From: an uncultured delta proteobacterium
GTDB taxonomy: Bacteria > Desulfobacterota > Syntrophia > Syntrophales > UBA8958
DNA length: 56,253 bases
Reading direction: 5' to 3'
NCBI GenBank assembly: GCA_903885795.1
Contig: CAISJV010000037.1
Location: forward strand, 1-56,253
Position 1 is the first letter of the stretch. The number at the start of each line of letters is the position of its first letter. Position numbers and translations under genes: made by a program. The notes beneath the pieces were generated by a model. The model had not been told where the DNA came from. It saw only the letters and a list, made by a program, of their open reading frames with translations, and searched no databases. This document shows, in pieces, positions 14,692 through 55,645 of this stretch.

Positions 14692-14768
<77 letters not shown>

Positions 14769-27118: not shown

Positions 27119-29962
27119 TTATATCGTCCCTTCTGTCAATTGCTTGAATAACTGGTCAGTACCGGGAAGCCTTCTTACGCGGTCGAGATAACGAAGAACA
27201 TCGTCACGTCTCCCGCTTCGAGCTAGTTTTATCAGAAGATTCTTCAATCGATCTTCATAGTCGAAGTCTGGCTGATATGCATCGAGAACCTTTCCGAGCA
27301 CAAGACTGACTGTTGCAGGATCTTGCTCCAGCAAGCGATCGAGTTCTTCGATAAACGTGTCGGCATGATACTCAACATCTATGAACGGTGCCACCGCCAG
27401 CAAAAGTTTGATTTCTCTATCTGCAAGTGCGGATACATAACAAATCAATCGGCTTAATCTCGAAAGAAGCACCTTTGGAGGCTTGGCCAGAGCTTCCGCC
27501 CAAGTAACACATTTTTCCCAAAAACAGAGTATCCGTTCGATTTGTTCTTTCGTCAACTCCTGCCTTCTTGCATTTGAGAAAAACCCGATGGCGTATTGAA
27601 GATCCTCAATCTGCTCCCCTTCGAACAGATAAGATAACCTCGGTGAATTCAGCGTTTCATCGCCCCAGAGATAAGCAAGCGCGATCCGTTCAATGATTTT
27701 TTCGTGAGCTTGCTTTCGGGTTCGATTTAGACGCAAAGCCCTGTCCAGCACTCCATGCTCAAGTAACAGCCGATAGATTGATCGAGATGCTGATGCATAA
27801 GCTAATCCGTCTATGGCACATGCAAAATTTTCCGGGAAGTCTTTAGGGAAAATATTATCAATACTTGGCAACAGCCAGTCGCGGCTAATGTAGTCGATAT
27901 TCGCAAGATAAGCCGCAGCCAGAGTGGAGAATTCGTAATTGGTGTTCTCGCACTTTGCCATTTCTGCATCAAAGGCTGGCTTGATAACTTTCCAAGCCTC
28001 CGTATGATCTCCCCGCTCTTTGTCGCTGATACGGCACACCCTGAGCGTATGGCTGAAAAGTGCTTCAATCGCTTTACCCCTGGGTGAATTGATTGCCTGA
28101 AACATGGCATCCTCTTTCGCATCATCAGCAGGTTCCAATTTCTCTAATAGAATTGATATTAACGCGAACGTACTCGTGAGAAATTCTGGTGGATAGGCTT
28201 TATTGTCATCTCTCGTACCAGCATGCAGAAATTCAGCAATTATCGGTGGGATCCAGTTTCGAGTAGGGGTCAAATCATGATCATTGACTACATCTTCCGT
28301 CCAGAAATCAGGTTTATCCAGCAATTGCGCAAAAAAAACGATTAATCGGCCCCATGCGACTTCCCAGTCAAGATCCTGCTGTTTATCCTTGGATTTATCC
28401 CAAATACTTTTAAAACCATTGATGATACCATACTGATATGGCCTTTTGGCATCGAGGAATGCCGGCAGGAGCTGAAGAAATTTTCGGGGATTGCTTCCTA
28501 CAATTTCCTCAAGTGTATCGACGAGAGCTTTTATTGATGGGGTTGACGGGCCTTGCCAGGCACTTGATTGTTGAAACTCGTTTAGCCTTTTTATTAAGCT
28601 GCCGTCCTCTGCAAACGCAAGCAGTTCTTGGGTGGAATAGGGTGAAGGGCCTGGACCGGACCATGTCTCCATATAGGAGTGAAAATCAGGATGCTCTGAC
28701 AGTCTGCCAATGCTCGGGTCAGCATCAAGCTCCCTAAACCAGCTGTCAGCTGGTTCATATCCCTTTCCCGCGATCGCTGACAACCAGTTTCGCTGCGTGT
28801 GCTTCAGGAGCAGGTCCGGCTCTTCATGGTCTGGTGGTGGTGACAAACGGCTAATAGGCTCAAGAGTTGAGGCCTTTTCTGACTCACTGAATTCAGCAAA
28901 GCGATCTTTGAGCAAATGGTAAGTTTCGTGAATGTTTCTCGAATCAAAGAGGTGGGTGCTAATAATATTCTTATAGAGACTTTTCAGCACAGACCATCGC
29001 TGATCAAGAATATAAATGGCGATCCGACGAACCATCTCGTTCTTATCTTCAAGGCTCTCGGCAACAAATGCAGAAGCACCCTCTGGCTCATTATCAGTCC
29101 ACGACAATAGGACATCTCGAAGCCCTTCGATAATTCCGTTGACAACATCATCCCACGAATGGTTCTGCGGATGATCCTCAACGGCGGGTCGACTCAAGTA
29201 GGTCGGAAGATCGCCAAATTCTTTGCCAAAAATATCGTAAACCCTGCCACGGAATATCTTAGCTGCTTCCCCGCCTGTTTTAGCGCCGAAGGTCTTTGCA
29301 TGGTGTTTGATCAGCTTCTTAAACCAGTAATCCTCAATAACTGCTTCTGGCTTCTTCCGCCCTTTATCAAAGCCTTCTTCCTCAGTCCAAAGAATGGCCG
29401 TGCAATGGTCAAGTATTATGACGGCTTTCTTCCAGTCGTCAGGCGCATTGCTCGCCAGCAATTGCCTTAGTGCTCCTATATCAAGGGAATGACCAACCAT
29501 GCCTCGGTCGTATTTACTGCTCAGCCAGATTGGTATAAAACCGAGATCCTCTTCTGCAATCGATGCTGTTGGCAGAAGACCAAGAATTTCGGCAAATTTA
29601 CGATACGTATGATAATTATCACGACTTCTACCATCAGAGCCACGAAAGCTGCTTACGGAACGGATGACTTCCATGACCTTTTGTGCTAATGGGACATCAT
29701 TGTTGACCCCAGCCTGCTTAGCAACGGCCTCTAAATAGTCAAGCGCGCTCCAATATGGGATTCGCACGAACCTACTGTCCTCGGACGGTATCGGATCCAA
29801 ATTATGTTCAGGAGCGAACAGGCCGGCATCTTTTAAGTGGCCAAAATATTCAGCAAAATTTTGCTGTTTGAGTAGAATCTCAAAACCCCATTTCGCTTGT
29901 TCTGGATTTTCGGTCATCCGTTTAACAAACAACGCTTGCTTTGTCGTTAATACGAGGCTCAC
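27119..29962 (-). CDS. large helical-repeat protein, partner of SIR2
   Basis: Encodes 947 residues. The sequence is rich in amphipathic helices and Leu/Trp, in the manner of HEAT-like or solenoid proteins, with no nuclease, ATPase or cysteine motif I can identify. It overlaps the SIR2 gene by four bases (ATGA), so the pair is translated together, SIR2 first. In known SIR2 defence systems the partner senses phage and licenses NAD depletion; that role is inferred here from arrangement only. It may match families such as DUF4020 that occur beside SIR2, which I cannot confirm. The composition is uniform and there is no sign of frameshift. Confidence 0.65.
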   Translation of the reverse strand: MSLVLTTKQALFVKRMTENPEQAKWGFEILLKQQNFAEYFGHLKDAGLFAPEHNLDPIPSEDSRFVRIPYWSALDYLEAVAKQAGVNNDVPLAQKVMEVIRSVSSFRGSDGRSRDNYHTYRKFAEILGLLPTASIAEEDLGFIPIWLSSKYDRGMVGHSLDIGALRQLLASNAPDDWKKAVIILDHCTAILWTEEEGFDKGRKKPEAVIEDYWFKKLIKHHAKTFGAKTGGEAAKIFRGRVYDIFGKEFGDLPTYLSRPAVEDHPQNHSWDDVVNGIIEGLRDVLLSWTDNEPEGASAFVAESLEDKNEMVRRIAIYILDQRWSVLKSLYKNIISTHLFDSRNIHETYHLLKDRFAEFSESEKASTLEPISRLSPPPDHEEPDLLLKHTQRNWLSAIAGKGYEPADSWFRELDADPSIGRLSEHPDFHSYMETWSGPGPSPYSTQELLAFAEDGSLIKRLNEFQQSSAWQGPSTPSIKALVDTLEEIVGSNPRKFLQLLPAFLDAKRPYQYGIINGFKSIWDKSKDKQQDLDWEVAWGRLIVFFAQLLDKPDFWTEDVVNDHDLTPTRNWIPPIIAEFLHAGTRDDNKAYPPEFLTSTFALISILLEKLEPADDAKEDAMFQAINSPRGKAIEALFSHTLRVCRISDKERGDHTEAWKVIKPAFDAEMAKCENTNYEFSTLAAAYLANIDYISRDWLLPSIDNIFPKDFPENFACAIDGLAYASASRSIYRLLLEHGVLDRALRLNRTRKQAHEKIIERIALAYLWGDETLNSPRLSYLFEGEQIEDLQYAIGFFSNARRQELTKEQIERILCFWEKCVTWAEALAKPPKVLLSRLSRLICYVSALADREIKLLLAVAPFIDVEYHADTFIEELDRLLEQDPATVSLVLGKVLDAYQPDFDYEDRLKNLLIKLARSGRRDDVLRYLDRVRRLPGTDQLFKQLTEGTI

Positions 29963-30948
29963 GATAGTAACTCCTCCATTTCGAGGCGTTTTGGCAAAGC
30001 CAATGGTGGACCAGGGGGAATCTCTCGGGCAAGGTAGTCAATGACTTTAATCAGTTGATCCCAATTTCGGTCGTCACGTGAAAATGGAAGTAATCCGATC
30101 CCGAACTCGCGAAAATAGCTCTCCAGACTACGTGCGAGCTCCAAGTCGTGCGTGAAAAATCCCTGCAGAACATAGTGTCTTGGTTCCTCATCAGTTTTCG
30201 GCTTCTGAATCCCCTTCTGAACTATGTACTCAAGGACTTCCATCTCATTGAGGCCGTAACCAATGAATAGGACGTTCTTCAACTGGAAAAGAGTCTGCAG
30301 AAATGTCAGAAACGCATTCTCGTGATTCTCTCTTCCATTCATTCGATGGCTCGAATAACAATCGAGGTAGTCGACAGTCCTGAGCACCATGCTGTCTCGA
30401 TCACGGATTGAACCATGTACGTGGAACACTGCATTCGGGACGTCCAGGTTTCCAACAGAGATATCGTTGCGCTTATAAAAGCAATGGCGCGATGTACCCA
30501 GTGGCAGTGACTGAGAAGACGCCGGCTCATCGGCCTGCAAAGGTTCTGGTGGAATTTGGTCCAGCCAATCATCATAATTTGTCGTAACAAAAGTGGTTGC
30601 CAGTCTTGAGAGGTTCGCATAGACCTCATCCCCGATTTTTTTCTTAGCATCCGACGGCGTCAGCAGTTTCTTGAAGTCGATACGAAGATTGTGCTGCTTT
30701 TCAAGCTCCAGAGCCACAGACAACTTCACCCGAGAAGAAAGAGGCTCAATTTGGGTGAGTTGGGCATGATTCAACTTCCCTTTTTCAACGAAAAAATTGA
30801 GGGAGGCATCGGCAAATTCGCTCCAGTTTGGGCAGCCTCCGAGTTGAGAAACCCCCGCCCCAATAAACGGAATGAGCTTCCTCTGAATCGCTGCGAGGCG
30901 GAGCGGTTCAGGGATATTTTTAGGGATAGGTTCGATCTTTTCTATCAT
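29959..30948 (-). CDS. SIR2-family NAD-hydrolase (defence-type)
   Basis: Encodes 329 residues. SIR2 NAD-binding motif IGAGVSQLGG (about 29-38), catalytic Asn/Asp in TTNYDDWL (122-129) and catalytic His in FHVHGS (175-180) are all intact, and LFIGYGLNEMEVLEY forms the late part of the fold. Defence-associated SIR2 proteins destroy NAD+ in infected cells, causing abortive infection. It is the first gene of a two-gene operon whose second gene is the 947-aa helical protein. Upstream of the start, AAGGTAT is a weak ribosome site. Confidence 0.85.
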   Translation of the reverse strand: MIEKIEPIPKNIPEPLRLAAIQRKLIPFIGAGVSQLGGCPNWSEFADASLNFFVEKGKLNHAQLTQIEPLSSRVKLSVALELEKQHNLRIDFKKLLTPSDAKKKIGDEVYANLSRLATTFVTTNYDDWLDQIPPEPLQADEPASSQSLPLGTSRHCFYKRNDISVGNLDVPNAVFHVHGSIRDRDSMVLRTVDYLDCYSSHRMNGRENHENAFLTFLQTLFQLKNVLFIGYGLNEMEVLEYIVQKGIQKPKTDEEPRHYVLQGFFTHDLELARSLESYFREFGIGLLPFSRDDRNWDQLIKVIDYLAREIPPGPPLALPKRLEMEELLS

Positions 30949-43382: not shown

Positions 43383-43805
43383 TTACCTACCGCTGTCGAA
43401 GGGGAGATAAGGTTCGGGCTCATCCCACTTCTTCCTCCCATCTACTCCGATCTTGTCCATGATCCCTTTGAGATACGCTCGCCATATTCCATCCTCATCG
43501 CCCCAACGGTCAGTCTCTTCTTCAATGAGCATTAATTTCGTGTTTAGGGAGTGATAAATTTCGATCCAGTCTTTTTTTGTTAGTGTTAAACTTTCCTTTC
43601 TTTCTCTACATTCCTGAACAATTACTTTTTCCAATGCTTTACCAGCATCTGCTATCTTCCCAGTCGACAGGCAATAGGGACAAGTTATAATCTTACTAAC
43701 CTCATTCAATAAATATACGTCCATTATTAAAAGCCCATGACATTCTTCACATTCAAATGGCCCTATCAATTCACGTTGGTCAGGATTTATCTTCTTGAAG
43801 TTCAT
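43383..43805 (-). CDS. zinc-finger-like protein at the end of the SAM operon
   Basis: Encodes 140 residues from an ATG at 43805, which has AAGGGG 9 bases upstream; the frame could run up to 43970 but with only a TTG start. Two cysteine pairs, FECEECHG (about 18-25) and ITCPYCLS (about 45-52), suggest a zinc ribbon. The C-terminal half is helical and charged. It is the last gene of the minus-strand operon and just left of it lies the insertion sequence. Family unknown. Confidence 0.55.
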   Translation of the reverse strand: MNFKKINPDQRELIGPFECEECHGLLIMDVYLLNEVSKIITCPYCLSTGKIADAGKALEKVIVQECRERKESLTLTKKDWIEIYHSLNTKLMLIEEETDRWGDEDGIWRAYLKGIMDKIGVDGRKKWDEPEPYLPFDSGR

Positions 43806-43950
43806 TATTTTCATCCCCTTACCCTTTCCAGCCCATCTATCACATGGGCTTATTGGCTCCTTCTTTCTTAGTGGACTACTAAAGGTCTCCCCATAGTCAA
43901 GACAAAAAATTGGGTTGTATTTGAACCTCAGATTAGTATTTTTAACCCTA

Positions 43951-44388
43951 TCACAGCAAAATTGGTTCAATTACCGCTTTTTTCAAATCAAACTCAATCC
44001 AATCTTCATAATTAGCTAATTCTCTCAAGAATTTTATGATTTTTTTAATTCCATCTTCTGCCTGTCCCAAACCAAAAAACGAACGTAACTCATTATTTTT
44101 GTCAATGATATCAAACCTGATCGAATAATGGTTTCCGCATCCTATGCTTTTGCAATAATCGGACAATGCCACGCATGTAAAATTTCCTTCTTTAAGTTGA
44201 ATGGGGTTCAATTCAGACGAAAAAAAATCATATTTGAACAAGCACGTATTGGCATCGTATTGACGATCGAAATATTTGTGGATCCAAATTGACGCATTTT
44301 CACCCTTGACTGGGTTGTTGAATTTTTTTCCCTTCAGGTCTTTTGAAATGGATATCCAAAGGTCCTTTTTTTGATCAGATTTTTTCAT
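43951..44388 (-). CDS. hypothetical protein of the SAM operon
   Basis: Encodes 145 residues from an ATG at 44388 with AGAGG upstream, overlapping the SAM synthetase-like gene by 14 bases. Contains CGNHYSIRFDII and a C-terminal helix. No family or catalytic motif is recognised. Cysteines are scattered, not paired. The overlap implies that it is co-translated with the divergent SAM synthetase and may work with it. Confidence 0.55.
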   Translation of the reverse strand: MKKSDQKKDLWISISKDLKGKKFNNPVKGENASIWIHKYFDRQYDANTCLFKYDFFSSELNPIQLKEGNFTCVALSDYCKSIGCGNHYSIRFDIIDKNNELRSFFGLGQAEDGIKKIIKFLRELANYEDWIEFDLKKAVIEPILL

Positions 44389-45466
44389 AAAGACCTCTGT
44401 TCCATGGCAGTGATGGATTGTAGAAATGACTGCCTGTCCCAATATTTCCAGTATTCTTAAAACCAGCGAAGCATTTTCTCATATTTTTGTGATGAAAATA
44501 ATCCGGCGGTACGGGACGCCCCCGGCCCTCGATATCATATAGGATATCCAGAGGTTCATTTCGATTCGGAGCATAGACAACAGTTACCTGACAGGATTTT
44601 GCTCCTGAAAGCACGATTTTCAGGGCTGCGTGGCGGGCGGTGTATGCGCCAAGGCGGTCAATGTGAGACATGTCCTTTCCGCTCAGCGCCCCGCCACCTA
44701 TTGGGATCCTCGGTCCGTAATAATCCATGACTAGTTTTCTGCCCGTCTGGCCGTTGTCCCCGTCACTTCCGCCGTTCAAGAGTGGACCATTAGGATTGAC
44801 AAGCAGTTCCACATCCTCCCAATTCTGGGCCCAGCGTGAATCAAGCATTCGGATATCTCTGTATGCCGTTTGCATGACTGAGCTTAAAATAACCGCCAAG
44901 TCTATCAGTGGCGTTTCCGCCTTCTGCTGAAGGGTTGCAAGGATGTGTTCCAATAACCATCTATTCTGTTCTTCCCTCATTCTGATCAGCAATTTTCCAT
45001 CCGGGCCTTGCCCTGAAAGTTTGCCAGTTTGAAACGATTTGATAACCGCCTCCCTTAATGAATGAGCCAGGAATTGCTCCGGCGGCAGAAAATGTGTATT
45101 TGCATCGTATCCGGCCCACCCAATTACGATGCATTGATCGTTCACATGTGTAGTATAGGGAGTTGGATCTCCTACCTGAAAACATATTTCGTTTAAGACT
45201 CTGTATTTTGCGGCGTCAGTATAATTATCTGGGGTGTAGCCAATATGACACCCGACATCCATGACGATCTGCTCAGCGCTTTTGGTTAACGGTTTCCTTG
45301 TAACGATGCCGCCGCTTAACCATACAACGTCCGACCAGACGCCGACTTCGATCTGCCCATAGGCATCTGCGTCTGCTTTGTAAGCTTCTTCAATCATATG
45401 ATCAGCCAGAATATCGCAAAACTTGTCTGGATGACCGTTAAAAACCGCTTCTGCGTAACGAATCAT
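44375..45466 (-). CDS. divergent S-adenosylmethionine synthetase paralogue
   Basis: Encodes 363 residues with the full SAM synthetase fold. FNGHPDK (9-15) matches the SEGHPDK motif with its His and metal-binding Asp. Also conserved are VNDQ (108-111, the DQ of GAGDQ), GPDGK (154-158, phosphate Lys), TGRK (241-244) and GGGALSGKD (257-265). Departures: SKVDR is SHIDR, replacing a phosphate-binding Lys with His; the GAGDQG loop is lost; and the C-terminus is remodelled. A second, canonical enzyme is encoded in the same operon, so this copy probably makes something other than ordinary SAM, or acts as a sensor. The start overlaps the vWA gene's stop (ATGA). Confidence 0.82.
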   Translation of the reverse strand: MIRYAEAVFNGHPDKFCDILADHMIEEAYKADADAYGQIEVGVWSDVVWLSGGIVTRKPLTKSAEQIVMDVGCHIGYTPDNYTDAAKYRVLNEICFQVGDPTPYTTHVNDQCIVIGWAGYDANTHFLPPEQFLAHSLREAVIKSFQTGKLSGQGPDGKLLIRMREEQNRWLLEHILATLQQKAETPLIDLAVILSSVMQTAYRDIRMLDSRWAQNWEDVELLVNPNGPLLNGGSDGDNGQTGRKLVMDYYGPRIPIGGGALSGKDMSHIDRLGAYTARHAALKIVLSGAKSCQVTVVYAPNRNEPLDILYDIEGRGRPVPPDYFHHKNMRKCFAGFKNTGNIGTGSHFYNPSLPWNRGLYEKI

Positions 45467-46791
45467 GTTGGATATTTCTCCAGTTGGGTATAGGGAATCC
45501 TCGCCCTTTGAATCTCAGCAGGTGATCCATCACGTGAAAGAAGCACATGAATCATCTGACCCGCTATTCGTCCTAAAAGATTTTTGTCGCATTGCTCAAT
45601 ATAACCGTCCGTGATGACTAGGGCCTTACCGGGGCCCGTGTCAGCCACATGCTTTAAAACACTGTTTATTGATGTCCCTCCGCTGGTTTGAGTTTTTAAT
45701 ATTCCCTTTTCAATGATGGCAGGTTTTACTTCATCGCTGAAGGCCCAGAAGGGCATACGCATGAAGCGCCGCATCCGGTTCAATAAGGCGACCAAGGCTT
45801 GCATCTCTGCGTTCATTGAGCCGCTGACATCAAGATAAATCTGGGTGGTAGATGCCCTATGTGGGATTGCCGTTTGCCAAACCGCATCTGGAATGATGGG
45901 ACTCCAAATGGCTTTAAGGTAGCTTCTCTTATCCCTCTCTGTCAAAATTGGTAGGGATGTTTCTCGCTCTATCCATTCTCTCTGTGGTGCATTCCGGTCA
46001 GGCGTCAACAATTTCATCAGGACCTGCCAGGTGGTCCTCTCCCACCTGGTCATCTTTTCGTTCTTTTGTACAAAGAGCGCATCATAAGGGTTGGCACCGA
46101 TACCTCTACTCTTTGGTGACCGCCAGATACCATCACCATTCATTTCCGACAATGCCCGTTCAAGAGCCTTGTATGCCTCATCCGAAAGTTTCTTTCCATT
46201 CCACTTGCCATGTCCACCGATGAGAAATTTCCCCTTGAGTAACTGAAAGATTGATTTGGGCAACACGAATTCTTCAAGTGCCCTAGCTGCATCAAGAATA
46301 TCATCGACAACGAGCCGCCCTTCATAAATATCCCACCACAGTCTCTGCACATCTGTAGAATCGGTCAGCTTATAACCATCTTTCTTTGGCGGACGAAGAA
46401 TGCTGGAAATACCTTTCGCGTTGGCGTAATAACGGGTCATGAAAGCACTGTATTCCGTGCCTAATGACCGGTGGATGATGGCATTTATGACGCTATCCAG
46501 AGCGATGTTCGTCACAGTATCCATACGGGTATATTGCTCTGTGTGGTTCAGGAGAATATGCAGGAATTCATGAAGAAGGACAGCCTTGACATCCGTTTCC
46601 GTCTCGGCATTCTGATTCAGAAAATTCAGGTTGACCATGAGCAGGGGACGGTCCGACAGGCTTACAGACAGCGTGTCAACATCCTCTGTAAAGACAACGT
46701 CAAGAATTGAAAGAACCGCCTGGCAGGCGAGTGGGTTCTCGTCGATCAGCTCTTTTAGGATTTGATTGAAATGCGTTTCAGTCACCTGCAT
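45463..46791 (-). CDS. DUF2201-type metallopeptidase-vWA protein
   Basis: Encodes 442 residues. The N-terminal half has a zinc-peptidase motif LLHEFLHILLNH (HEFLH, 74-78). The C-terminal half is a von Willebrand A domain with an intact MIDAS: DVSGS (321-325), Thr in SGGTS (about 373) and Asp in VITDG (about 395). This two-part protein is the usual companion of MoxR-type AAA+ ATPases, which act as chaperones or remodelers on it. The start at 46791 overlaps the upstream gene by 14 bases; an upstream extension to 46869 is possible. Cytoplasmic. Confidence 0.85.
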   Translation of the reverse strand: MQVTETHFNQILKELIDENPLACQAVLSILDVVFTEDVDTLSVSLSDRPLLMVNLNFLNQNAETETDVKAVLLHEFLHILLNHTEQYTRMDTVTNIALDSVINAIIHRSLGTEYSAFMTRYYANAKGISSILRPPKKDGYKLTDSTDVQRLWWDIYEGRLVVDDILDAARALEEFVLPKSIFQLLKGKFLIGGHGKWNGKKLSDEAYKALERALSEMNGDGIWRSPKSRGIGANPYDALFVQKNEKMTRWERTTWQVLMKLLTPDRNAPQREWIERETSLPILTERDKRSYLKAIWSPIIPDAVWQTAIPHRASTTQIYLDVSGSMNAEMQALVALLNRMRRFMRMPFWAFSDEVKPAIIEKGILKTQTSGGTSINSVLKHVADTGPGKALVITDGYIEQCDKNLLGRIAGQMIHVLLSRDGSPAEIQRARIPYTQLEKYPT

Positions 46792-47287
46792 AAAAATTAC
46801 CGACCCTATAGAGGGTGAGTTTGCGCTGTAACCGGTTTGCCGTCCAGATGACGGAGTGTCCGGAGTCATAAAAGTATTTATTGCACAGGCACAGAATTAT
46901 TGCTGTTTTTAGTATCTCATCGGCAGAGGCTGTCAGGACATCAAGGATTGACTCATTTTCAACCTGCTCCGGTTCTTTGACGGTTCTGCAGAATTGTATG
47001 CCAGCTGGCAGATCGTATGCACCTTTTGCCTGATCTGCCTCGCTGAAGCCTTTCTTGTTCAGTATTTCACCCAAGACCTGCAAAGGATTTGCGTTGTCGG
47101 GGAATATAAGCCCATACTGTTTAATTTTTGGGAAAAAAATTGAAGCGGACGGATCACCCAAGATGCTTGATTTAACGATTTCTCTGCGCGTCCGGGACCT
47201 AGGGCCGCCGCTGTTGAAAAAAACATTTTTCAGCCAGTCCCAGCAAACCGGCTTTATTGGGAAATTGCGCGCAACGCTATAATACAC
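46778..47287 (-). CDS. hypothetical protein between MoxR and vWA genes
   Basis: Encodes 169 residues, starting with GTG at 47287 behind AAGGAG at 8 bases, and overlapping the MoxR gene by 34 bases and the vWA gene by 14. No motif is recognised; one basic patch (RSRTRREIVKSS) lies near residue 35. Being sandwiched between the ATPase and the vWA protein, it could be an adaptor. Overlaps on both sides argue for a real, tightly coupled gene. Confidence 0.6.
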   Translation of the reverse strand: MYYSVARNFPIKPVCWDWLKNVFFNSGGPRSRTRREIVKSSILGDPSASIFFPKIKQYGLIFPDNANPLQVLGEILNKKGFSEADQAKGAYDLPAGIQFCRTVKEPEQVENESILDVLTASADEILKTAIILCLCNKYFYDSGHSVIWTANRLQRKLTLYRVGNFYAGD

Positions 47288-48648
47288 CGGTCAAACTCCT
47301 TTTCATATTCTGCCGGAGAATCCAGAACAATCTTGTTAACCAGGAGGTAGTAGAAGAGCTGTTTTGCCCTTTCCTGGCGTTTACCCTTCAAACCGGAAAG
47401 CACGCCTGCTAAACGTGTATATTCAGGATGGATTGTGTTGGTATCGTTAAGACGCTCCTGCCATTGAATTTCTCCTTCGAGATCCAGGATACCGCTCGCG
47501 ATCTTTCCCAATTCGTTTATTGCCTCTCGTCCTATCTGTAAACATTCTTTTATTGCCAAAGGGAATAGGGCAAAGGCAAAGGCGGCCGCATTATCATTCT
47601 TTTCTCTCGCAAGGGTCTGCGTTACCGCCAGCGTTCCCGTGTCTTTATCCGGACATTTATCAATAAGTAGTTTGACCTTCTTGCTTATGGTACGTTCGAG
47701 GTGGAAGCGATTGAGCCAAAGGATTTTCTCATCCGCCTGTATCGCCTGCCATGCCATTTGGTGAGCCGCGTGAATAATTTCCTTTTTGGGGGTGACGCCC
47801 CATGCTCGATGCGGAAGGCTCCATTGCAACGTCATCTCAAAGGTGCGATCCTGCAAAGAACATCCGGTCACTGCCGACACGGCCAACAGGTTTCTGACCA
47901 GTTGTCGTGCACGTCTCGGCGATATCCTGAGATCGGCCTCGCCCAACATGGTTGCCGCTACGCAGGCATAGTTTATCAACGCCTCGGGAACGTCTACCAT
48001 TAATTGACAATATTCCTTCTTCCAATGATTAAGTCTACTGGCCAGTTGCCCTCCGTCATTTGAGATAGTGCCATCCCCCCGAGGATCTGCAATCAACTTT
48101 CGAGTATTGTCATCGAGCTCCTCCCAGTCTGGAACTTCTAAGACAAAGGCAAACCGGTCGGCAAGAGCTTGATCCAGCGGTACGGAACCTTCGTAAAAAT
48201 CGGCTATTCCTTGGTCAGATGAACATGGATTCATGGCTGCCCACCGGTAACGAAGCTTTTCGAGAAGCAATCCCTGAATCCGTCTTTCATAGATGAGTGA
48301 GAACAAGCGGTTCTGATGTTCCGGTTTGCAGCGACTGATCTCGTCAACCAGGACGGACTCAGCGGCCCATACAGTCGCCGGCGTTTCCAAATAACGGATT
48401 CCTGAAAAATCGGGATTCGGATAAGGAAAGCCTATAAGGTCGTCGAAAGAGATCAGACTGGCATTGATGTGACGGTGTTCCAGAACAAGCGCCTCTGAGA
48501 GACTGTTCAGGAGAAAAGTCTTACCGGTTCCAGCCTTGCCGATAAGGAGTAATGGGTCTTCTGTTACTAGGCTGGCCAGAATAATCGGTTCAACGTGATT
48601 GTATCCATAAACTCCCAAGGGCTCGATGTATGATGTTTGATTTTGCAT
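47254..48648 (-). CDS. MoxR-family AAA+ ATPase
   Basis: Encodes 464 residues. Walker A GKAGTGKT (37-44), Walker B VLVDEIS (99-105), sensor 1 in WAAMNPCSS and the arginine finger region ALADRFAF are all present, as in MoxR/RavA ATPases. These proteins remodel vWA-containing partners and assemble metal centres or complexes. The vWA partner is two genes downstream. The C-terminal 180 residues are helical and unassigned. GAGG lies before the ATG. Confidence 0.9.
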   Translation of the reverse strand: MQNQTSYIEPLGVYGYNHVEPIILASLVTEDPLLLIGKAGTGKTFLLNSLSEALVLEHRHINASLISFDDLIGFPYPNPDFSGIRYLETPATVWAAESVLVDEISRCKPEHQNRLFSLIYERRIQGLLLEKLRYRWAAMNPCSSDQGIADFYEGSVPLDQALADRFAFVLEVPDWEELDDNTRKLIADPRGDGTISNDGGQLASRLNHWKKEYCQLMVDVPEALINYACVAATMLGEADLRISPRRARQLVRNLLAVSAVTGCSLQDRTFEMTLQWSLPHRAWGVTPKKEIIHAAHQMAWQAIQADEKILWLNRFHLERTISKKVKLLIDKCPDKDTGTLAVTQTLAREKNDNAAAFAFALFPLAIKECLQIGREAINELGKIASGILDLEGEIQWQERLNDTNTIHPEYTRLAGVLSGLKGKRQERAKQLFYYLLVNKIVLDSPAEYEKEFDRCIIALRAISQ

Positions 48649-48673: not shown

Positions 48674-49588
48674 TTATTTGATGACTTTTGTGTTTCCCTT
48701 TGTCTTTATCCCATCGGAATACGCAAGGCCCCTAAAGAGCCAGGATAATCTGTTTGATAGTTCATGTATTTGTTTTAGCGCTTCCTGTACATCTTCAGCA
48801 AAGTAGACCTTATCTTTTTCAAAAGGCTTGTGGCTGTATTTGCATGTCACTTTCTTCATAAGTTTTTCAAAATAGACCACTTTATCAGGATTTTCAAAAT
48901 AGCCTTTGTTGTATGCCTTAAGGGAGTCATATAAATCTCCGAACAAGCTCATCAATAATTGTTTATCCCATTTGCTGTTTATTAATTTATCTGGCAGCTT
49001 AGGGTAATCTAAATTGATTGTAAAACTCTCGGGGTTTGTATCCGTCAAATAATGTGTGCATCCCTCTGATTTGTCTCCAGTCTTACAGTAAGGACACTTC
49101 ATCATTTTTTTAAGGTATTTAAAACACTGGTCTACTTTAAAGATGGTTGCTTTGAGATTCTTATCTACTTCATTGGTGGCTCTAGCAAAATACACGTCTC
49201 CTTCAAAAATATCATTAGTCGGCCATTGATCTAAAATTTCAGACTCGAATTCCAACGATAATTTCTTCATAATCTTTTTAAAATACTCCCGCATATCAAA
49301 ACTTTTTATTCTCCTGCTTTTATAAGCTTCAAGAATATCGTAGAAATCTTGGAAAACATCTTTTAGTGTTTCCTCGGAACAAATGCTGAAATCGGTGAGT
49401 TTTTGTTTTCTCGCCGGATTATCTATGTCTGAGAAGGCGATATCAATACTAAACCACGTAGGATTCCAGCCGTCATAGGTGTTGGTTACCCATCCAACAA
49501 CGTGTTCACATCCACCAGTAAAACCTCGCATATGATCAAAAACTACTCTTGCTTCACAGTAAGGACATGCTACAGAGTCGCTACTCAT
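48674..49588 (-). CDS. protein with two CPYC...CxH modules (paralogue 1)
   Basis: Encodes 304 residues. Two zinc-type modules: CPYC at 8-11 with CEH at 27-29, and CPYC at 165-168 with CTH at 177-179. Each is followed by an acidic, aromatic stretch and a long helix. The C-terminal LSWLFRGLAY is almost identical to LAWLFRGLAY in the next gene upstream, so the two are paralogues. AGAGGAG precedes the ATG. Function unknown; a metal-bound scaffold or sensor is possible. Confidence 0.65.
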   Translation of the reverse strand: MSSDSVACPYCEARVVFDHMRGFTGGCEHVVGWVTNTYDGWNPTWFSIDIAFSDIDNPARKQKLTDFSICSEETLKDVFQDFYDILEAYKSRRIKSFDMREYFKKIMKKLSLEFESEILDQWPTNDIFEGDVYFARATNEVDKNLKATIFKVDQCFKYLKKMMKCPYCKTGDKSEGCTHYLTDTNPESFTINLDYPKLPDKLINSKWDKQLLMSLFGDLYDSLKAYNKGYFENPDKVVYFEKLMKKVTCKYSHKPFEKDKVYFAEDVQEALKQIHELSNRLSWLFRGLAYSDGIKTKGNTKVIK

Positions 49589-49631: not shown

Positions 49632-50897
49632 TCATGTTTTTTTCTCTTTCTTTGCCTTCATGTTTTCAGCATACGCAAGGCCCCTAAAGAGCCAGGCTAA
49701 CATCTTTTCCAGTTCACTCAGCTTTTCTAGTACCGGTTCTTTCTCATTGGCAAAAACAACAAGACTTTCCTTTTGCTCATAATATTTAAATTCGCAATGG
49801 CCAAGTTTTTCTAGTAATTTCTTTAGATAAACGATCCGATTGGGTTCCTTGGTCAATCCGTGTTCGTAGGCATCGAGCAGATCATATAATTCACCAAAAG
49901 TCTTTCTTAAATTCTCTTGTAACCATTTTTTGTCTTTTAATTTCTCAGGCAGTCTCGGGTAATTCACCAGATCCGTGTGCGTTACATAATGCATACATTT
50001 TGTTTTTTTATAGTCTACGCCACAGTAAGGGCATCCCATGTGCTCTTTATTGATTTTATCTTCAAGTTTTTTAAAACCACGTTCCAATCTTCTTATGATT
50101 TTCTTAAGCTGCTTATGCACTTCACGAGGATTTTCGGCAAAGTAATAATAGCCGCAAACGCTTGATCCGGGACCACCTGAGAATTCATGGTATCTTGTTT
50201 CAAAATCACACGTGATTTTTTCCATTAATTCTTCAAAATATCTAATTATGTCTGGTTTTTCAGTTAACTCTATTGTGTCTTCATCAGCATCTCCGTAAGC
50301 TTTGAGAATATCACGTATATTACCAAATATTTTACATAAGATTTCTTCGGGCCATTCGAAATTGACACAGGTTTTTGGCATGAGTGGGTATTTTAAATCC
50401 AAAATAAAACAATCTGGGTCAGTATAGGCAATTACATGTTCGCACCCCTCACTAGATTTTGAATTACAGTATGGACAAACAAGATCTGATTCGTCCTCCT
50501 CATCTTCTTCTTCAACCTCCTGATGAATTTTCTTGTATCTAAAAGCGTTCCATCGGGCTTTTGCATTATCGTGTTTATTAATGCCTTTTGATGTACAGGA
50601 ACCAAATATCGACCATTCATCTATGATATCTCCATGAAAATTTCTAACTGAATGGTCATCAGCGGTAACATCAAAGGTTATGGTGCCTATATTAAACGGG
50701 CCATTAGAAGCGTATCCGGCGAGAACTTTGAAAGAAGCACTGCTCTGCTGCTGAATGATTGACCCTTCAAAATAGGTATTGTTAAACCATTTGATCGTTG
50801 CCTGGTGGGGCACACTTTGAAAACTGCCATCGATCATTTTCTGCTTGATCGTCAAATACCAATACTCAATCAAGTCGTAGTAGTTAATATCATCCAT
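49632..50897 (-). CDS. protein with two CPYC...CxH modules (paralogue 2)
   Basis: Encodes 421 residues. The first 130 residues form a separate domain, ending in an acidic run (VEEEDEEDES). Then come CPYC 141-144 with CEH 152-154 and CPYC 289-292 with CMH 301-303, with the same following helices as the 304-aa neighbour. The C-terminus LAWLFRGLAYAENMKAKK matches that neighbour. The gene overlaps the nucleosidase-like gene by 8 bases. Extra N-terminal domain unknown; it may provide specificity. Confidence 0.65.
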   Translation of the reverse strand: MDDINYYDLIEYWYLTIKQKMIDGSFQSVPHQATIKWFNNTYFEGSIIQQQSSASFKVLAGYASNGPFNIGTITFDVTADDHSVRNFHGDIIDEWSIFGSCTSKGINKHDNAKARWNAFRYKKIHQEVEEEDEEDESDLVCPYCNSKSSEGCEHVIAYTDPDCFILDLKYPLMPKTCVNFEWPEEILCKIFGNIRDILKAYGDADEDTIELTEKPDIIRYFEELMEKITCDFETRYHEFSGGPGSSVCGYYYFAENPREVHKQLKKIIRRLERGFKKLEDKINKEHMGCPYCGVDYKKTKCMHYVTHTDLVNYPRLPEKLKDKKWLQENLRKTFGELYDLLDAYEHGLTKEPNRIVYLKKLLEKLGHCEFKYYEQKESLVVFANEKEPVLEKLSELEKMLAWLFRGLAYAENMKAKKEKKT

Positions 50898-51600
50898 CAC
50901 CAGCCATCCTCAACCACTCCGGCAGTGTTTTGAGTAAAGGGGGCATTACCTTGCTGACTTGGCGCTCGAAGACGATGTTGGACCCATAGATGGGGCTGCC
51001 GGTATGTCCCACAACATCGGAGACAGTCCTAAGGATGAGACAGTCGATCTTGTTGATAGTCCGAACAACGTGCGCCACGGCAGCCGACTCCCAATCTGCT
51101 GCCATCGCTCCGAATTTCTCACGTAGGCTTGGGATCTCTACAGGGACCAGGTCACGATCGGCTGAAACGATGACCCCGGGTTTCGCATTCAATGGATACG
51201 GGGGATTCTGCCAAGGCAGCTTCAAATCCGTTGTGAACCGGAGCTCCATGTTTTGCTGTCCACCTGACTGTTCGCAGATGTCGTATACAGCAGTTCGTTC
51301 AGCGAGAATTACGTCGCCCTCTGTGACATCTCCATCGAATCCTCCGCATGTGCCTACATTGACGAGGAGCGGTGGACACCAGTGGTCGAGGGCGAACTGA
51401 GAAGCTGCTGCGGCTGCTATTTTACCTGACCCGCTATACACAAAGACAACCGGCTGGGTTCGGTTGGAGACCTGGATGGTCTTACGGAACGATGCATATG
51501 GGCCATTATCGGAATTCTTCACTCCATAGCACCCCATCGTCACCTTCCACTCCGCTTCTGCCGTGATTATTATAACGATACATCCTGATGGAGATGCCAT
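50890..51600 (-). CDS. MTA/SAH nucleosidase-like protein (nucleoside phosphorylase superfamily)
   Basis: Encodes 236 residues. The start at 51600 follows AGGGGA. N-terminal IIITAEAEW is the strand-loop of the fold. Near the end ADWESAAVAHV (168-178) matches the MEMEAAAIAHV region of MTAN with its catalytic Glu, and RTVSDVVG (191-198) carries the purine-binding Asp. MTA/SAH nucleosidase cleaves methylthioadenosine and S-adenosylhomocysteine, by-products of SAM use. In an operon with two SAM synthetases it would clear those inhibitors. A phosphorylase or other nucleoside substrate is not excluded. Confidence 0.75.
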   Translation of the reverse strand: MASPSGCIVIIITAEAEWKVTMGCYGVKNSDNGPYASFRKTIQVSNRTQPVVFVYSGSGKIAAAAASQFALDHWCPPLLVNVGTCGGFDGDVTEGDVILAERTAVYDICEQSGGQQNMELRFTTDLKLPWQNPPYPLNAKPGVIVSADRDLVPVEIPSLREKFGAMAADWESAAVAHVVRTINKIDCLILRTVSDVVGHTGSPIYGSNIVFERQVSKVMPPLLKTLPEWLRMAGDG

Positions 51601-51663
51601 ATTCAAAGTTCCCCTTTAGGTCTGCTTGAACCAATACGCTGCAATTACCTCGATTACTGCGAA

Positions 51664-52248
51664 TCACACGAGCCCATTCTCACGTTTAAAGTCTGATAGG
51701 CACCGAGCCAGTTTGTCCTTAAGCTTGGCGGCAGCCGCGCTGGCATCACTGCAGTACCATATTGCGTAACGGGATGAGGACATCGATGTTTCGGTGAACG
51801 CCTCTTCTTCATAAACGTCGCAGTCAAGTATTTCCAGAAGCGCCAGTCGAACCAATACGGCATATCTTTCTATGTTGACCCTGAAGTCCCAGCAGTAGTC
51901 CTCTTCAGAATCGTAGGCCTTTGCATCGAGCCGTACTTCCTTAAGTGCCTGAACGTAAGTGCGAAATACAGTGCCCTTTGGCGCTTTTGGTAGTTTGGCG
52001 CTCTTGCCTTTATATCTGGCACGAGCGTAGCAGTAAGCGATCGATTCAAAGAACTCGCCGATCACGTCGATTTCATAGAGCGCTCCACCACCGAGACCGA
52101 TCGCGTACTTTCCTTGTCCGTCGAAAGTGCAATCGAAATCGGCGAGAAAGTGACTGCATCGGGTTTCGCGCTGGCCGCATAAAGGACAAGGGATTTCTTC
52201 GGGACTTAACTCACTGTCGCCATTATAGTCAGAATCGTTGTCATTCAT
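51664..52248 (-). CDS. protein with one CPLC...CxH module
   Basis: Encodes 194 residues, starting at 52248 behind AAAAGG. CPLC at 21-24 and CSH at 31-33 reproduce the zinc module of the two larger operon proteins, with an acidic leader (NDNDSDYNGDSELSPEE) before it. The rest is helical (ALKEVRLDAKAY, LARCLSDF). It lacks the LSWLFRGLAY tail. It is a third, single-module member of the same set. Function unknown. Confidence 0.6.
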   Translation of the reverse strand: MNDNDSDYNGDSELSPEEIPCPLCGQRETRCSHFLADFDCTFDGQGKYAIGLGGGALYEIDVIGEFFESIAYCYARARYKGKSAKLPKAPKGTVFRTYVQALKEVRLDAKAYDSEEDYCWDFRVNIERYAVLVRLALLEILDCDVYEEEAFTETSMSSSRYAIWYCSDASAAAAKLKDKLARCLSDFKRENGLV

Positions 52249-52328
52249 GGGGCACCTTTTTATTATTCTAAGTTGTTGCCATTTTCTGAATCTCACAGCA
52301 AACTTTATCTGTCCTTATAACCGGTTAA

Positions 52329-53513
52329 TTATTTTAGCTCAGCCGCTGTACGAAGCTGGTCCACCCGATCTGTCTTTTCCCAGGGAAATCCTTCGCGACC
52401 AAAGTGGCCGTAGTTGCAACTCTCGCGATAGCTCCAGCCTTTGGGTGTGGTGAGTCCCATATCCTTAATCATCATAGCTGGACGAAAATCGAAAATTGCA
52501 CCATCCATAAGGATATGGTCAATCTTATCCTCATCAATTTTCGCTGTACCATAGGTACTGACGTTGATGCTGAGCGGTTTTGAGACGCCAATCGCATAGG
52601 CGACTTGAATCTCGCATTTGTCGGCCAGTTTTGCGGCAACAATATTCTTGGCGACATAACGGGCATAATAAGCAGCAGAACGATCCACCTTTGACGGATC
52701 TTTACCGGAGAAAGCGCCACCACCATGTGATCCTACGCCACCATAAGAATCTACAATAATTTTACGGCCTGTGACACCGGAATCACCGCACGGTCCACCA
52801 ATCACGAACCTTCCTGTCGGGTTGACAAAAAACTCAGTTCGGTTGGTCAACAGCCCGGTTTTATCGAGCACTTCATGTGCAACTTGTATCAGATCTTTGC
52901 GAATTAGTTCCATCGGAACATCCCGGGTCTGATGCGAAATCACCACCGATGTGATTTCGATAGCTTTACCATTTTCGTGTAACACACTAACCTGCGACTT
53001 GGAATCAGGGCGGAGATATTCGATTACCTTCTCTTTGCGGAGGCGGGTCAGCTCTTCCAATAAATGGTGTGCGAAGATGATTGAAGCAGGCATCAATTGA
53101 TGTGTGGCGCGGGATGCATACCCGAACATCATTCCTTGATCTCCCGCACCCTGATCCTCATAGCGTTCACGGTTTACACCCATAGCAATATCCGGGGCCT
53201 GGCCATGAATAGCGCATATATAATTGAATGTGTCGTAGCTGAATCCTTCCGAAGGATCATCGTATCCGATATCCTTCACGACTTCACGCGCGATTACCTG
53301 TGGATTGATTTTATCCCAGTTTTCGCACGTGATTTCACCAAGATTAACCACAAGATTTGGACCTACAGCAGTCTCGCAACCCACGTGGGCCTTGGGGTCT
53401 TGGGCCAGACATGCATCCAGAATGGCGTCAGAAATCTGATCGCATACTTTATCGGGGTGGCCTTCGGAAACCGATTCCGAGGTGTAAACGTGACGTGTCA
53501 TCAATTTGCTCAT
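52329..53513 (-). CDS. metK: S-adenosylmethionine synthetase
   Basis: Encodes 394 residues, canonical MetK. Makes SAM from methionine and ATP. The signatures SEGHPDK, GAGDQGMMFGYA, RPDSKSQV, TGRKIIVDSYGG, GGGAFSGKDPSKVDR and GHFGREGFPWE are intact. GAAAGGA sits before the start. It is the third gene of the riboswitch-led operon. Riboswitch control of metK is usual in many bacteria, but placing it in an accessory operon with a MoxR-vWA module and a second SAM synthetase is not. Confidence 0.97.
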   Translation of the reverse strand: MSKLMTRHVYTSESVSEGHPDKVCDQISDAILDACLAQDPKAHVGCETAVGPNLVVNLGEITCENWDKINPQVIAREVVKDIGYDDPSEGFSYDTFNYICAIHGQAPDIAMGVNRERYEDQGAGDQGMMFGYASRATHQLMPASIIFAHHLLEELTRLRKEKVIEYLRPDSKSQVSVLHENGKAIEITSVVISHQTRDVPMELIRKDLIQVAHEVLDKTGLLTNRTEFFVNPTGRFVIGGPCGDSGVTGRKIIVDSYGGVGSHGGGAFSGKDPSKVDRSAAYYARYVAKNIVAAKLADKCEIQVAYAIGVSKPLSINVSTYGTAKIDEDKIDHILMDGAIFDFRPAMMIKDMGLTTPKGWSYRESCNYGHFGREGFPWEKTDRVDQLRTAAELK

Positions 53514-54037: not shown

Positions 54038-54487
54038 TCATGCATCTATATGCGTTTTGTTGTTGTATTCATCGACCTCGTCCTGCATTTCTTCGATCTG
54101 CTTCTGGAGCATGGACACCATACCATCCAGTTGTTCACGATTGATGAATGCGTCCCATTGGTAAACCACTTTTGCCGGATCGCTTCCGCCGTAAAATAGC
54201 GCTTCCTCGCCTTCTCTTGTTTCCAATCTGTTGAGAAATGCGATGCGGGATTTCAGTTCCGCCATACGTTCAAGATTGACATAGATGGGAACGTTTGCTT
54301 CCGCAATTTTGGCCTTCACGAGACCCAGTCGATCAGAAGTTGCGAGAATCTGATCCCATACTTCCTGGCGATTCACTTTGGAAACGTTATCGCTCCTGCG
54401 GGAGTTTTCCCGTGTCAAAATGTGCTGTAAGCGATTCAGTTCACCAGCCAGACTGTTTTTCAGCTTTAATGCTTTGGCTAAATTCAT
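54038..54487 (-). CDS. helical protein, possibly DIP1984/septicolysin-like
   Basis: Encodes 149 residues, the first gene after the riboswitch region. MNLAKALKLKNSLAGELNRLQ, then a conserved-looking KIAEANVPIYVNLERMAELKSRI, and a C-terminal coiled coil resemble the DIP1984 (septicolysin) family, a long helical protein of unknown function. GAAAGGA lies 7 bases before the ATG. A 7-bp hairpin is 31 bases upstream (54518-54536). Confidence in the family is only moderate. Confidence 0.55.
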   Translation of the reverse strand: MNLAKALKLKNSLAGELNRLQHILTRENSRRSDNVSKVNRQEVWDQILATSDRLGLVKAKIAEANVPIYVNLERMAELKSRIAFLNRLETREGEEALFYGGSDPAKVVYQWDAFINREQLDGMVSMLQKQIEEMQDEVDEYNNKTHIDA

Positions 54488-54663: not shown

Positions 54664-54693
54664 GCAAAAAGCCCATGCTTAGCGGCACGGGCT
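54664..54693 (-). terminator. intrinsic terminator linked to aptamers B and C
   Basis: On the minus strand AGCCCGTGC, loop CGCTAA, GCATGGGCT (one G-U pair) and then a run of T: a 9-bp terminator stem. It lies between aptamer C and the first gene of the SAM operon, so it can act as the expression platform. Confidence 0.85.
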
Positions 54694-54712
54694 ACGAATG
54701 GTCTTCATCTGT

Positions 54713-54766
54713 CCGGCCTTTAGCGAATTGTTTAGAGCGGCTGCAAGTAACTGGTTAAATCACCGC
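54713..54766 (-). ncRNA. SAM-II-like riboswitch aptamer C
   Basis: Minus strand GCGGTGATTTAACC, then CTTGCAGCCGC, then TAAACAATTCGCTAAAGG. P1 is GCGG with CCGC; the loop GATTTAAC and the 3' GCTAAA can pair to form the pseudoknot. This follows the SAM-II order CGCxGAUUUA...UUGCA...AUAAAU...GCUAAA. It is the last aptamer before the terminator at 54664. Confidence 0.82.
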
Positions 54767-54769
54767 TCA

Positions 54770-54820
54770 GTTGTTTAGCACATTTATATCGCGGAGCAAT
54801 TTATCTGAATAAATCACCGC
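54770..54820 (-). ncRNA. SAM-II-like riboswitch aptamer B
   Basis: Minus strand GCGGTGATTTATTC, AAATTGCTCCGC, GATATAAATGTGCTAAAC. P1 is GCGG/CCGC. GATATAAATGTGCTAAA is nearly the SAM-II consensus GUGAUAAAUGUAGCUAAA. It is four bases upstream of aptamer C, so B and C form a tandem. Confidence 0.85.
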
Positions 54821-54863
54821 TTGCTTATTATCTCGAAATTTATCCTCCTCTATGTCCAAAACT

Positions 54864-54893
54864 AAAAAACCCTGCACTCTATTCAGCGCAGGG
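54864..54893 (-). terminator. intrinsic terminator linked to aptamer A
   Basis: Minus strand CCCTGC, a 12-base loop, GCAGGG, then six T residues. It lies just downstream of aptamer A, giving that aptamer its own termination platform. Confidence 0.85.
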
Positions 54894-54902
54894 CCAACTA
54901 CC

Positions 54903-54958
54903 CGGCGCTTTAAGCAGATTTTATATCCCGACCTGCAAGTTGCTCGTTAAATCGCCGG
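54903..54958 (-). ncRNA. SAM-II-like riboswitch aptamer A
   Basis: Minus strand CCGGCGATTTAACGAG, AACTTGCAGGTCGG, GATATAAAATCTGCTTAAAG. P1 is CCGGC paired with GUCGG (one G-U). Compared with B and C the 3' pairing strand has one extra U (GCUUAAA), so it is the least regular of the three. It is the first aptamer transcribed. Confidence 0.75.
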
Positions 54959-54966
54959 TAACTGTT

Positions 54967-54994
54967 ATCGTACGCCTTATTGACAAGAAGTCAA
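54967..54994 (-). promoter_or_regulatory. promoter of the SAM operon
   Basis: Minus strand TTGACT (54994-54989) and TACGAT (54972-54967) spaced by 16 bases. Transcription would begin about 54960, at the first base of aptamer A, so all three aptamers would be in the leader. Confidence 0.6.
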
Positions 54995-55129: not shown

Positions 55130-55645
55130 TGCCGTGGAAAACGTATGACTTGTCGGTTAAAGTCCGATCATGGGAGTTCGGTAGTTCGCCCATGTAGCTT
55201 GAGGGAGGTGTAAAGGGTAACCTGAAACGCTAAGTTCCCTGACAAAGGCTCCTTTAGGGAGTCGAGCAAACCTGCGGGTCGCAGCGCGAGCGAACCCAGA
55301 TGTAGCCTCGAAAGAGACAATGGAGTTGTCGACCCCGTAATACAAGGGGGAAGACCGGAGCATCTATCCTGACGAAAACTACCAGAACCGATAGATGGGC
55401 TTCCGGGGTAACAGGGGTGACACGCAGAGGCAGCCATACGACAATAAACACGGGAGACCCTTGTCGATGCTCTACAGGAGGGCAACCGGTAGATATAAGG
55501 AAACGAAATTCTACGGGGTCGGCAAGGGAGTCGGAGTTGCCCATATTACCGTTTGTATCCCAAGGACAGCATAACCTTGGGAGAGGGAAGGGGCAATACT
55601 TTTATCAGGTTTCAGAAGAAGTAAAGGAAAGGGGATTGCACGGAA
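55130..55645 (+). ncRNA. 5' part of a group II intron (domain I region)
   Basis: About 500 non-coding bases that precede a maturase gene. The run is G-rich and structured, with repeated phrases of the type GCGAGCGAACCCAGATGTAG and GGGGGAAGACC that accompany reverse-transcriptase introns of this family. The exact 5' end is not visible, since no unambiguous GUGYG start could be placed. Frames seen on the minus strand here are short and lack support. Confidence 0.55.

Follow-up and report, generated by a model that had tools for sequence, protein, structure and literature searches.

A divergent SAM-synthetase-like protein encoded with a MoxR/VWA gene pair: candidate enzyme of a rare, possibly mobile and perhaps conflict-related cassette

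We identified a divergent relative of SAM synthetase, here called MetKL, in a stretch of 56,253 nucleotides from an uncultured delta proteobacterium (contig CAISJV010000037.1; this whole stretch is referred to as the window). MetKL is not a loose duplicate of metK; it ends a block of four genes that recurs in distantly related bacteria and encodes, in the same order and on the same strand, a MoxR-type AAA+ ATPase, a small protein, a VWA protein with an HExxH stretch, and MetKL itself. SAM synthetases are generally regarded as one-reaction enzymes. The distinct MetKL branch has kept the ATP machinery and dropped most of the usual methionine contacts, and it is associated with an AAA+/VWA machine. 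This combination suggests a second chemistry on the SAM-synthetase fold and a conflict cassette of a new kind. The reading that we tentatively favour, at somewhat less than even probability, is that MetKL is catalytically active on a different acceptor and that the MoxR-VWA pair controls it within a mobile conflict cassette. The set is compact: it consists of four proteins and a few diagnostic residues, to which two of the genomes add a leader of SAM-sensing type. For the coordinates of all elements of the run see Table 1.

Table 1. Elements of the metK-to-MetKL run and its leader, in order of reading on the reverse strand (positions in the window)
Feature	Position	Strand	Remarks
Further SAM-II-like element	54890..54968	-	20.4 bits, below gathering
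Intrinsic-terminator-like hairpin	54868..54895	-	after upstream SAM-II-like element
Degenerate SAM-II-like element	54773..54821	-	pattern match only
SAM-II (SAM_alpha, RF00521) riboswitch	54701..54776	-	Rfam 43.6 bits, gathering 36
Intrinsic-terminator-like hairpin	54670..54693	-	after downstream riboswitch
149-aa ORF between leader and metK	54038..54487	-	no Pfam match, E<=0.001
Canonical metK	52329..53513	-	heads the run; TIGR01034 501.8 bits
Protein with one CPxC..CxH unit, otherwise uncharacterised	51664..52296	-	sequence motif
Nucleoside phosphorylase superfamily protein	50890..51606	-	Pfam/NCBIfam
Zinc-ribbon-like repeat protein B, CPxC..CxH	49632..50900	-	not found at relatives
Zinc-ribbon-like repeat protein A, CPxC..CxH	48674..49588	-	not found at relatives
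MoxR-type AAA+ ATPase	47254..48648	-	AAA_5 33 bits (Pfam)
Small protein	46778..47287	-	about 150 aa conserved, NSGGPRSR motif in window; start codon uncertain
VWA protein	45463..46791	-	HExxHxxxxH stretch and VWA part; start from alignment (ORF runs to 46869)
MetKL	44375..45466	-	divergent SAM-synthetase-like enzyme; last gene in core block

The MetKL reading frame starts with ATG and encodes 363 amino acids. Its score with the NCBIfam metK equivalog TIGR01034 was 152.7 bits, below the cut-off of 309.4 bits. All three MetK domains of Pfam were matched, weakly: the C domain (78.1 bits, cut-off 25) and the N domain (45.6 bits, cut-off 33.1) lie above their cut-offs and the M domain (27.8 bits, cut-off 29) slightly under. 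The corresponding values for the canonical metK of the window are 205.9 (C), 122.7 (N) and 123.5 bits (M). A first AlphaFold model of MetKL, built from six sequences, was poor (pLDDT 60.1; Foldseek matches to MATs at E about 5e-15 but with a TM of 0.37) and was replaced by a model from a 37-sequence alignment. This second model reached a pLDDT of 86.6 and a pTM of 0.88, the alignment containing canonical MetKs, which favours a MetK-like look. A superposition with a MAT crystal structure resulted in a VIA-align Z of 38.5 and an rmsd of 2.4 for 351 residues, which is nearly the full length. Confidence falls below a pLDDT of 60 around residues 241-260, where active-site motifs are included, as well as at 341-350 and at the C-terminus (361-363). 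The complex of T3 SAM lyase (PDB 8bb1) was among the best-matching chains, and a BFVD search with the same model gave a single, weak match under E 0.001.

An earlier note, made from the letters of the window, had described a divergent SAM synthetase paralogue beside a canonical one and had suggested comparing its predicted structure with MetK. The confident fold and the score far below the MetK cut-off bear out the first part. The two genes lie in one co-directional run with small gaps, and "beside" stands here for a distance of about 6.9 kb with seven ORFs between. Two other MetK genes of the host genome are located on other contigs, so that with the window metK there are three besides MetKL.

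The first protein of the block is an AAA+ ATPase with a Walker A motif (GxxGTGKT) and a DE pair, both invariant in six sequences. The family name MoxR is our reading of its AAA_5/AAA_3 match; the bpMoxR profile PF20030 was matched in the core block only at E 0.095. The VWA protein carries an HEFLH..LL.H stretch and MIDAS residues (DxSxS..T..D), likewise invariant in six sequences, so an ATPase with Walker A/B motifs adjoins a VWA protein with a MIDAS. Pfam matches of the latter to Peptidase_M48, DUF2201_N and VWA_CoxE were sub-threshold. The small protein had no match in Pfam (E<=0.1), NCBIfam or PADLOC. The VWA and MetKL genes share a 4-nt overlap in the window and in all but one of the five relatives found first; in the exception (L007) they are 22 nt apart.

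These five relatives (51-55% identity) were found by a scan of an 84,980-species genome collection with the single MetKL sequence, a query that detects close relatives only. Their source records, all metagenome-assembled, bear the titles Proteobacteria, Flavobacteriales, Roseibacillus, Caulobacteraceae and Alphaproteobacteria. MoxR, the small protein and VWA precede MetKL in all five, the small protein of L005 being recognised from translation and tblastn, and the same order was found in G352 and G1513. The shared gene order at this level of identity, together with a dN/dS of 0.112 in one pair, argues that MetKL is real beyond chance. A canonical metK is present somewhere in the genome of each of the five.

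Searches based on MetKL are biased, and we therefore used an alignment of the VWA protein as query (E <= 1e-25). It matched 2 of 155 genomes of the window's own class and then 3 of 345, 6 of 288, 1 of 170 and 4 of 164 genomes in further, overlapping sets, which amounts to 14 different genomes. Four of these (G000, G298, G299 and G301) were search centres already having MetKL; among the remaining ten, G352 had been met earlier through the MetKL search. Nine of the ten could be resolved. MetKL is adjacent in five: G352, G1513 and G1363, and across a contig break also G977 and G1465, where the second contig bears both MetKL and the end of a VWA gene. In two more (G1326 and G1346) a canonical metK precedes the block and no MetKL follows it; a MetKL-level match was sought in the whole genome of G1326 and was not found, while G1346 was read across its 14.7-kb contig. 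The two weak VWA hits, G1413 and G1549, have no MetK gene within the 18-19 kb examined. A MetK-family gene thus accompanies the block in seven of nine resolvable genomes. In the tenth genome (G1140) the contig is cut inside the VWA gene, and its one match to the MetK family, a canonical MetK, lies on a different contig. The loci L072 and L073, where MoxR, the small protein and VWA follow a canonical metK and MetKL is absent downstream, appear as a second version of the cassette.

Overall, the cassette is rare and its distribution is scattered. At E <= 1e-70, MetKL was found in 2 of the 155 genomes from the window's own class and in 1 of 398 genomes of the phylum of G300, namely the search centre itself. 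A sample of 297 genomes from the window's phylum contained no close copy besides that of the own genome, the next best match being 33% identical, and seven genomes of the same genus gave no match to the MetKL or VWA queries. The cassette may be horizontally mobile: an integrase lies upstream of the block in L009 and a Y1 transposase upstream in L057.

In a tree of ten MetKLs and 23 other MetKs, the MetKLs fall on one side of a single branch (support 99/96, 100% of 200 bootstrap trees). This branch is long, and L074 and L208 form a deep pair within the group. For the one close pair L005/L009, dN/dS was 0.112 for MetKL, 0.147 for MoxR and 0.09 for VWA, and MetKL is under purifying selection in this pair. 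Active-site motifs are invariant across six MetKL sequences that are about 50% identical. Relaxed pressure, which the earlier note had offered as one explanation of the divergence, is not supported by these data.

In order to locate the changes in the active site, we compared ten MetKLs with eleven canonical MetKs (E. coli numbering; L009, L105 and C2_metK left out). H14, D16, E42, D118, D163, K165, D238, K245, K265 and D271 are kept in all ten MetKLs, K17 in seven (Arg in three) and R244 in eight (Lys in two). We take D16, K17, E42, D118, K165, R244, K245, K265 and D271 to have ATP/metal roles. MetKL thereby resembles bacterial MetK (TIGR01034; PF00438/PF02772/PF02773) in its whole fold and in the residues for ATP, triphosphate, Mg and K. 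Unlike bacterial MetK, it has E55, I102 and I302, the last presumably a methionine-side position, replaced in ten of ten sequences (Pro302 in all), Q98 in nine (the window's MetKL keeps it) and K269 in eight. These eight close members have His at 269, and the two most divergent ones, L074 and L208, retain the Lys. Further differences are a shortened loop, the score under the NCBIfam cut-off, the separate tree group and the gene neighbourhood with MoxR/VWA. The adenine-stacking F230 is kept in four of ten.

According to the available part of PMC3853416, H14 is thought to be the catalytic acid, D163 and D238 are positioned on the ribose, E55 and D238 contact the methionine amino group, Q98 and K269 the carboxylate and I102 the side chain; the available part of PMC1282579 agrees on the amino group contacts and on Q98. 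Of 78 columns invariant in the canonical set, 53 are kept in at least seven of ten MetKLs. By the same measure all 12 ATP/metal positions are kept (hypergeometric P 0.006) and none of the five methionine-side positions E55, Q98, I102, K269 and I302 (P 0.0025); both P values ignore the relatedness within the set of sequences, and the positions were partly chosen on general background.

The retained metal- and ATP-contacting motifs had been recognised in the earlier note, as had the rebuilt GAGDQG loop, which reads xxNDQC; the loop leading up to D118 is shorter by about 10 residues. The note had also pointed to a phosphate-contacting Lys replaced by His. SKVDR indeed reads SHIDR, but this Lys corresponds to E. 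coli K269 and hence to a contact of the methionine carboxylate (PMC3853416, available part). Its suggestion of a new substrate gains from the kept ATP/metal side and the five lost methionine-side positions. It stays short of proof, because D238 is kept in all ten sequences and archaeal MATs, which do not have E55, Q98 and K269, still bind methionine (PMC3853416, available part).

In the window and in L055 the run opens with the canonical metK, which is preceded by SAM-II-like elements. The window metK is 84% identical to the one heading the block in G352 (L055), whereas ten genomes of the same family gave no match above 51% identity; it was therefore probably acquired, perhaps together with the cassette. 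Its position relative to the block varies. In the window the phosphorylase, zinc-ribbon and uncharacterised genes lie in between, in L055 metK stands directly before MoxR, and in L005/L056 a DUF3293 gene (L056 6814-7488 (-)) separates the two. We rejected canonical metK as a core part, since it is adjacent at some loci only, and likewise the phosphorylase and zinc-ribbon genes, which had no tblastn match at the relatives. The best NCBIfam models for the nucleoside phosphorylase-like protein were MTA/SAH nucleosidase and futalosine hydrolase, all below cut-off, and a tblastn search for it at other block loci gave no match. A zinc-ribbon profile matched only window ORFs among 14 sources (none at the 13 other loci). 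The zinc-ribbon units between MoxR and metK appear as an unrecognised family, and L072 contains two loose matches to the CPxC..CxH pattern.

One riboswitch in the leader of the window lies above the Rfam gathering threshold. A scan of 20 loci with the SAM-II core pattern yielded three copies each in the window and L055 and a pair of copies in both L109 and L110, while the other 16 loci had none; no copy was found in 20 mononucleotide shuffles of window plus L055. With 13.7 for L055 and 21.1 for L109, the Rfam scores stay below gathering, and at gathering no SAM-II was found in L109, L055, L056, L072 or L073. L109 and L110 are contigs from a viral collection whose metK is 85% identical to that of the window, with SAM-II-like elements before and after it. 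The DNA of about 1.3 kb after metK in L109 does not read as MoxR, and the SAM-II-like leader may thus belong to the metK lineage and not to the core block. By analogy with the known behaviour of SAM-II, the leader would allow more transcription at low SAM. The gaps of 25-57 nt or overlaps between metK and MetKL in the window would be consistent with a single transcript from leader to MetKL. Several short-stem terminator-like sites lie on that strand between metK and MetKL; in the window region 16 terminator-like sites were counted, 10.5 being expected.

Based on these results we propose the following working scheme. MetKL would bind ATP with Mg/K and its triphosphate, the usual recognition of free methionine being lost, and would move the adenosyl group of ATP to an acceptor other than free methionine. 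The MoxR AAA+ ATPase and its VWA/HExxH partner, with the small accessory protein, would switch or remodel MetKL. MetKL would then be the enzymatic output of a mobile cassette that most likely acts in cellular conflict, i.e. in defence against phages or mobile elements. Some versions of the cassette would add a canonical MetK, in two genomes with tandem SAM-II-like elements presumably raising expression at low SAM. A more specific form of this scheme is unlikely in our estimate: MetKL as the enzyme that synthesises a novel signal or toxin of low molecular weight, made under MoxR-VWA control by transfer of adenosyl onto a non-methionine acceptor, in an undescribed type of defence. Candidate acceptors would be another thioether, SAM itself, a nucleotide or the methionine of a peptide, the last since it is without the free amino and carboxyl groups whose contacts MetKL has lost. 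A SAM analogue used for signalling, as conceived in the earlier note, might conceivably be the product.

MoxR-VWA activation pairs, among them CbbQO and NorQD, resemble the cassette in that an AAA+ ATPase is encoded next to a VWA protein together with a possible client enzyme; they differ in that the client here would be a SAM-synthetase relative and that there is an extra small protein. RavA-ViaA and CoxD-CoxE are further such pairs and appear in the available part of PMC7159879, where several MoxR-vWA pairs are listed as assembly or insertion factors. In the way that these two serve their clients, MoxR-VWA might serve as activase or assembly chaperone for SAM synthetases, with MetK or MetKL as client, and buffer the SAM supply with no role in defence. 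Such a function would suit the position of metK ahead of the block in the window, L055 and L005/L056, the SAM-II-like elements upstream in the window and L055, and the genomes G1326 and G1346, where canonical metK and not MetKL accompanies the block. We nevertheless regard it as rather unlikely, because the distribution is sporadic (2/155 genomes of the own class), the MetKL pocket is changed and not kept, and at least four MetKL blocks (L057, L058, L009 and L074), each with at least 4 kb of upstream DNA, have no adjoining metK.

The remaining alternatives concern the chemistry of MetKL. MATs show side hydrolysis of ATP. An effector in which water attacks and ATP is destroyed to adenosine and tripolyphosphate, stopping the growth of infected cells upon release by MoxR-VWA, would retain the ATP/PPPi residues and lose the methionine side just as observed, and in the window a nucleoside-phosphorylase-like gene accompanies MetKL. 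It is quite improbable, however, as that gene had no match at the other block loci searched, and the residues found at 269 (His, the eight close members) and 302 (Pro, all ten) speak for a specific ligand and not for an empty pocket. Still less credit is due to a non-catalytic partner or decoy of MetK, which would form mixed dimers or trap phage proteins such as T3 SAM lyase: the fold is the same, the SAM-lyase complex 8bb1 is among the best chains, and MetKL genomes carry canonical metK (5/5), sometimes in the same run, yet such a protein would not need the 12 catalytic positions that are kept, and blocks without adjacent metK exist. Lowest of all we rank an ordinary SAM synthetase kept as a spare, in which drift has left other residues to bind methionine, as in the archaeal precedent (PMC3853416, available part). 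The same fold and catalytic residues and the kept D238 would fit this, but the host already has three other MetK genes, and the recurring MoxR/VWA linkage and the long separate branch also speak against it.

Among the closest known systems are the MoxR-vWA ternary conflict systems with VMAP or iSTAND, which likewise join a MoxR AAA+/VWA pair to a further component and in which nucleoside-phosphorylase-type domains also occur (PMC7159879, available part). The cassette differs from them in that its other genes are the small protein and MetKL and that its VWA protein has an HExxH stretch. No VMAP, iSTAND or similar third component was recognised among the four block genes with Pfam, PADLOC and NCBIfam, and a term search within the available part of PMC7159879 did not find SAM synthetase.

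SAM-AMP of type III CRISPR is made by Cas10, a fold different from that of MetKL. The likeness lies in the use of ATP and SAM chemistry in defence (PMC11055957, available part); no Cas10 is among the PADLOC matches listed for 10 window proteins. PMC12783734, in its available part, concerns carboxy-SAM and not MetK paralogues. Among the full-text matches listed, a scope that excludes bioRxiv and most subscription papers, we found no earlier description of a MoxR/VWA/SAM-synthetase cassette or of MetK in defence.

A defence role of the cassette is plausible from mixed neighbourhood evidence. In a raw tally, defence-type neighbours include a PDC-M26A match upstream in L055, where a DUF2357/PD-(D/E)XK protein is also encoded, a WYL regulator beside the block in L058 and a KAP NTPase in L056. 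Eight of ten flank genes had no match in PADLOC (in L009, L057, L058, L070 and L075, and three in L074). The two matched genes, of UvrD type in L055 and of RecD type in L072, encode helicases, which are widely shared by such models. PADLOC gave no match for four window proteins and for L055 5551-6321. In the window a tRNA-Met gene (14692-14768) is followed further on by PADLOC matches to type IIG, HKD-Snf2, a two-gene Dsr1 and Hhe, and an IS1634 transposase (NCBIfam) also lies past the tRNA. Eight loci contained a single tRNA gene between them, for tRNA-Met; it lies in L009 at a distance of about 3.4 kb from MetKL.

A phage origin of MetKL was considered and rejected, as six MetKs from phage collections (29-36% identity) retain methionine contacts. 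Five of them keep E55, Q98, K269 and I302; the sixth, L105, keeps E55 and Q98, its other positions being unreadable. The tree includes five phage-collection MetKs, all of which branch outside the MetKL group. On viral contigs we found no confirmed MetKL with the single-sequence query and no confirmed VWA relative. The best MetKL matches in plasmid and phage records are all below 60% identity and, among the matches listed, reach at most 33%.

Further observations concern the surroundings of the run and the host genome. Two ORFs without assigned function lie downstream of MetKL on the same strand (43951-44442 and 43383-43970 (-)); a tblastn search for them at the relatives' loci gave no match. 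The Dsr1 genes (29959-30948 and 27119-29962 (-)) overlap; the first covers the N-terminal part of a single Dsr1 model and the second its C-terminal part, which looks like a two-gene version. One MetK of the host on another contig (G000:C2:3449-3853, locus L002) departs from the canonical residues, with K17 changed to Met, Q188 to Ala, F230 to Trp and R272 to Cys. Upstream of the metK run, a match to group II intron D1-D4 was observed at 55150-55289 (+) of the window with 90 bits.
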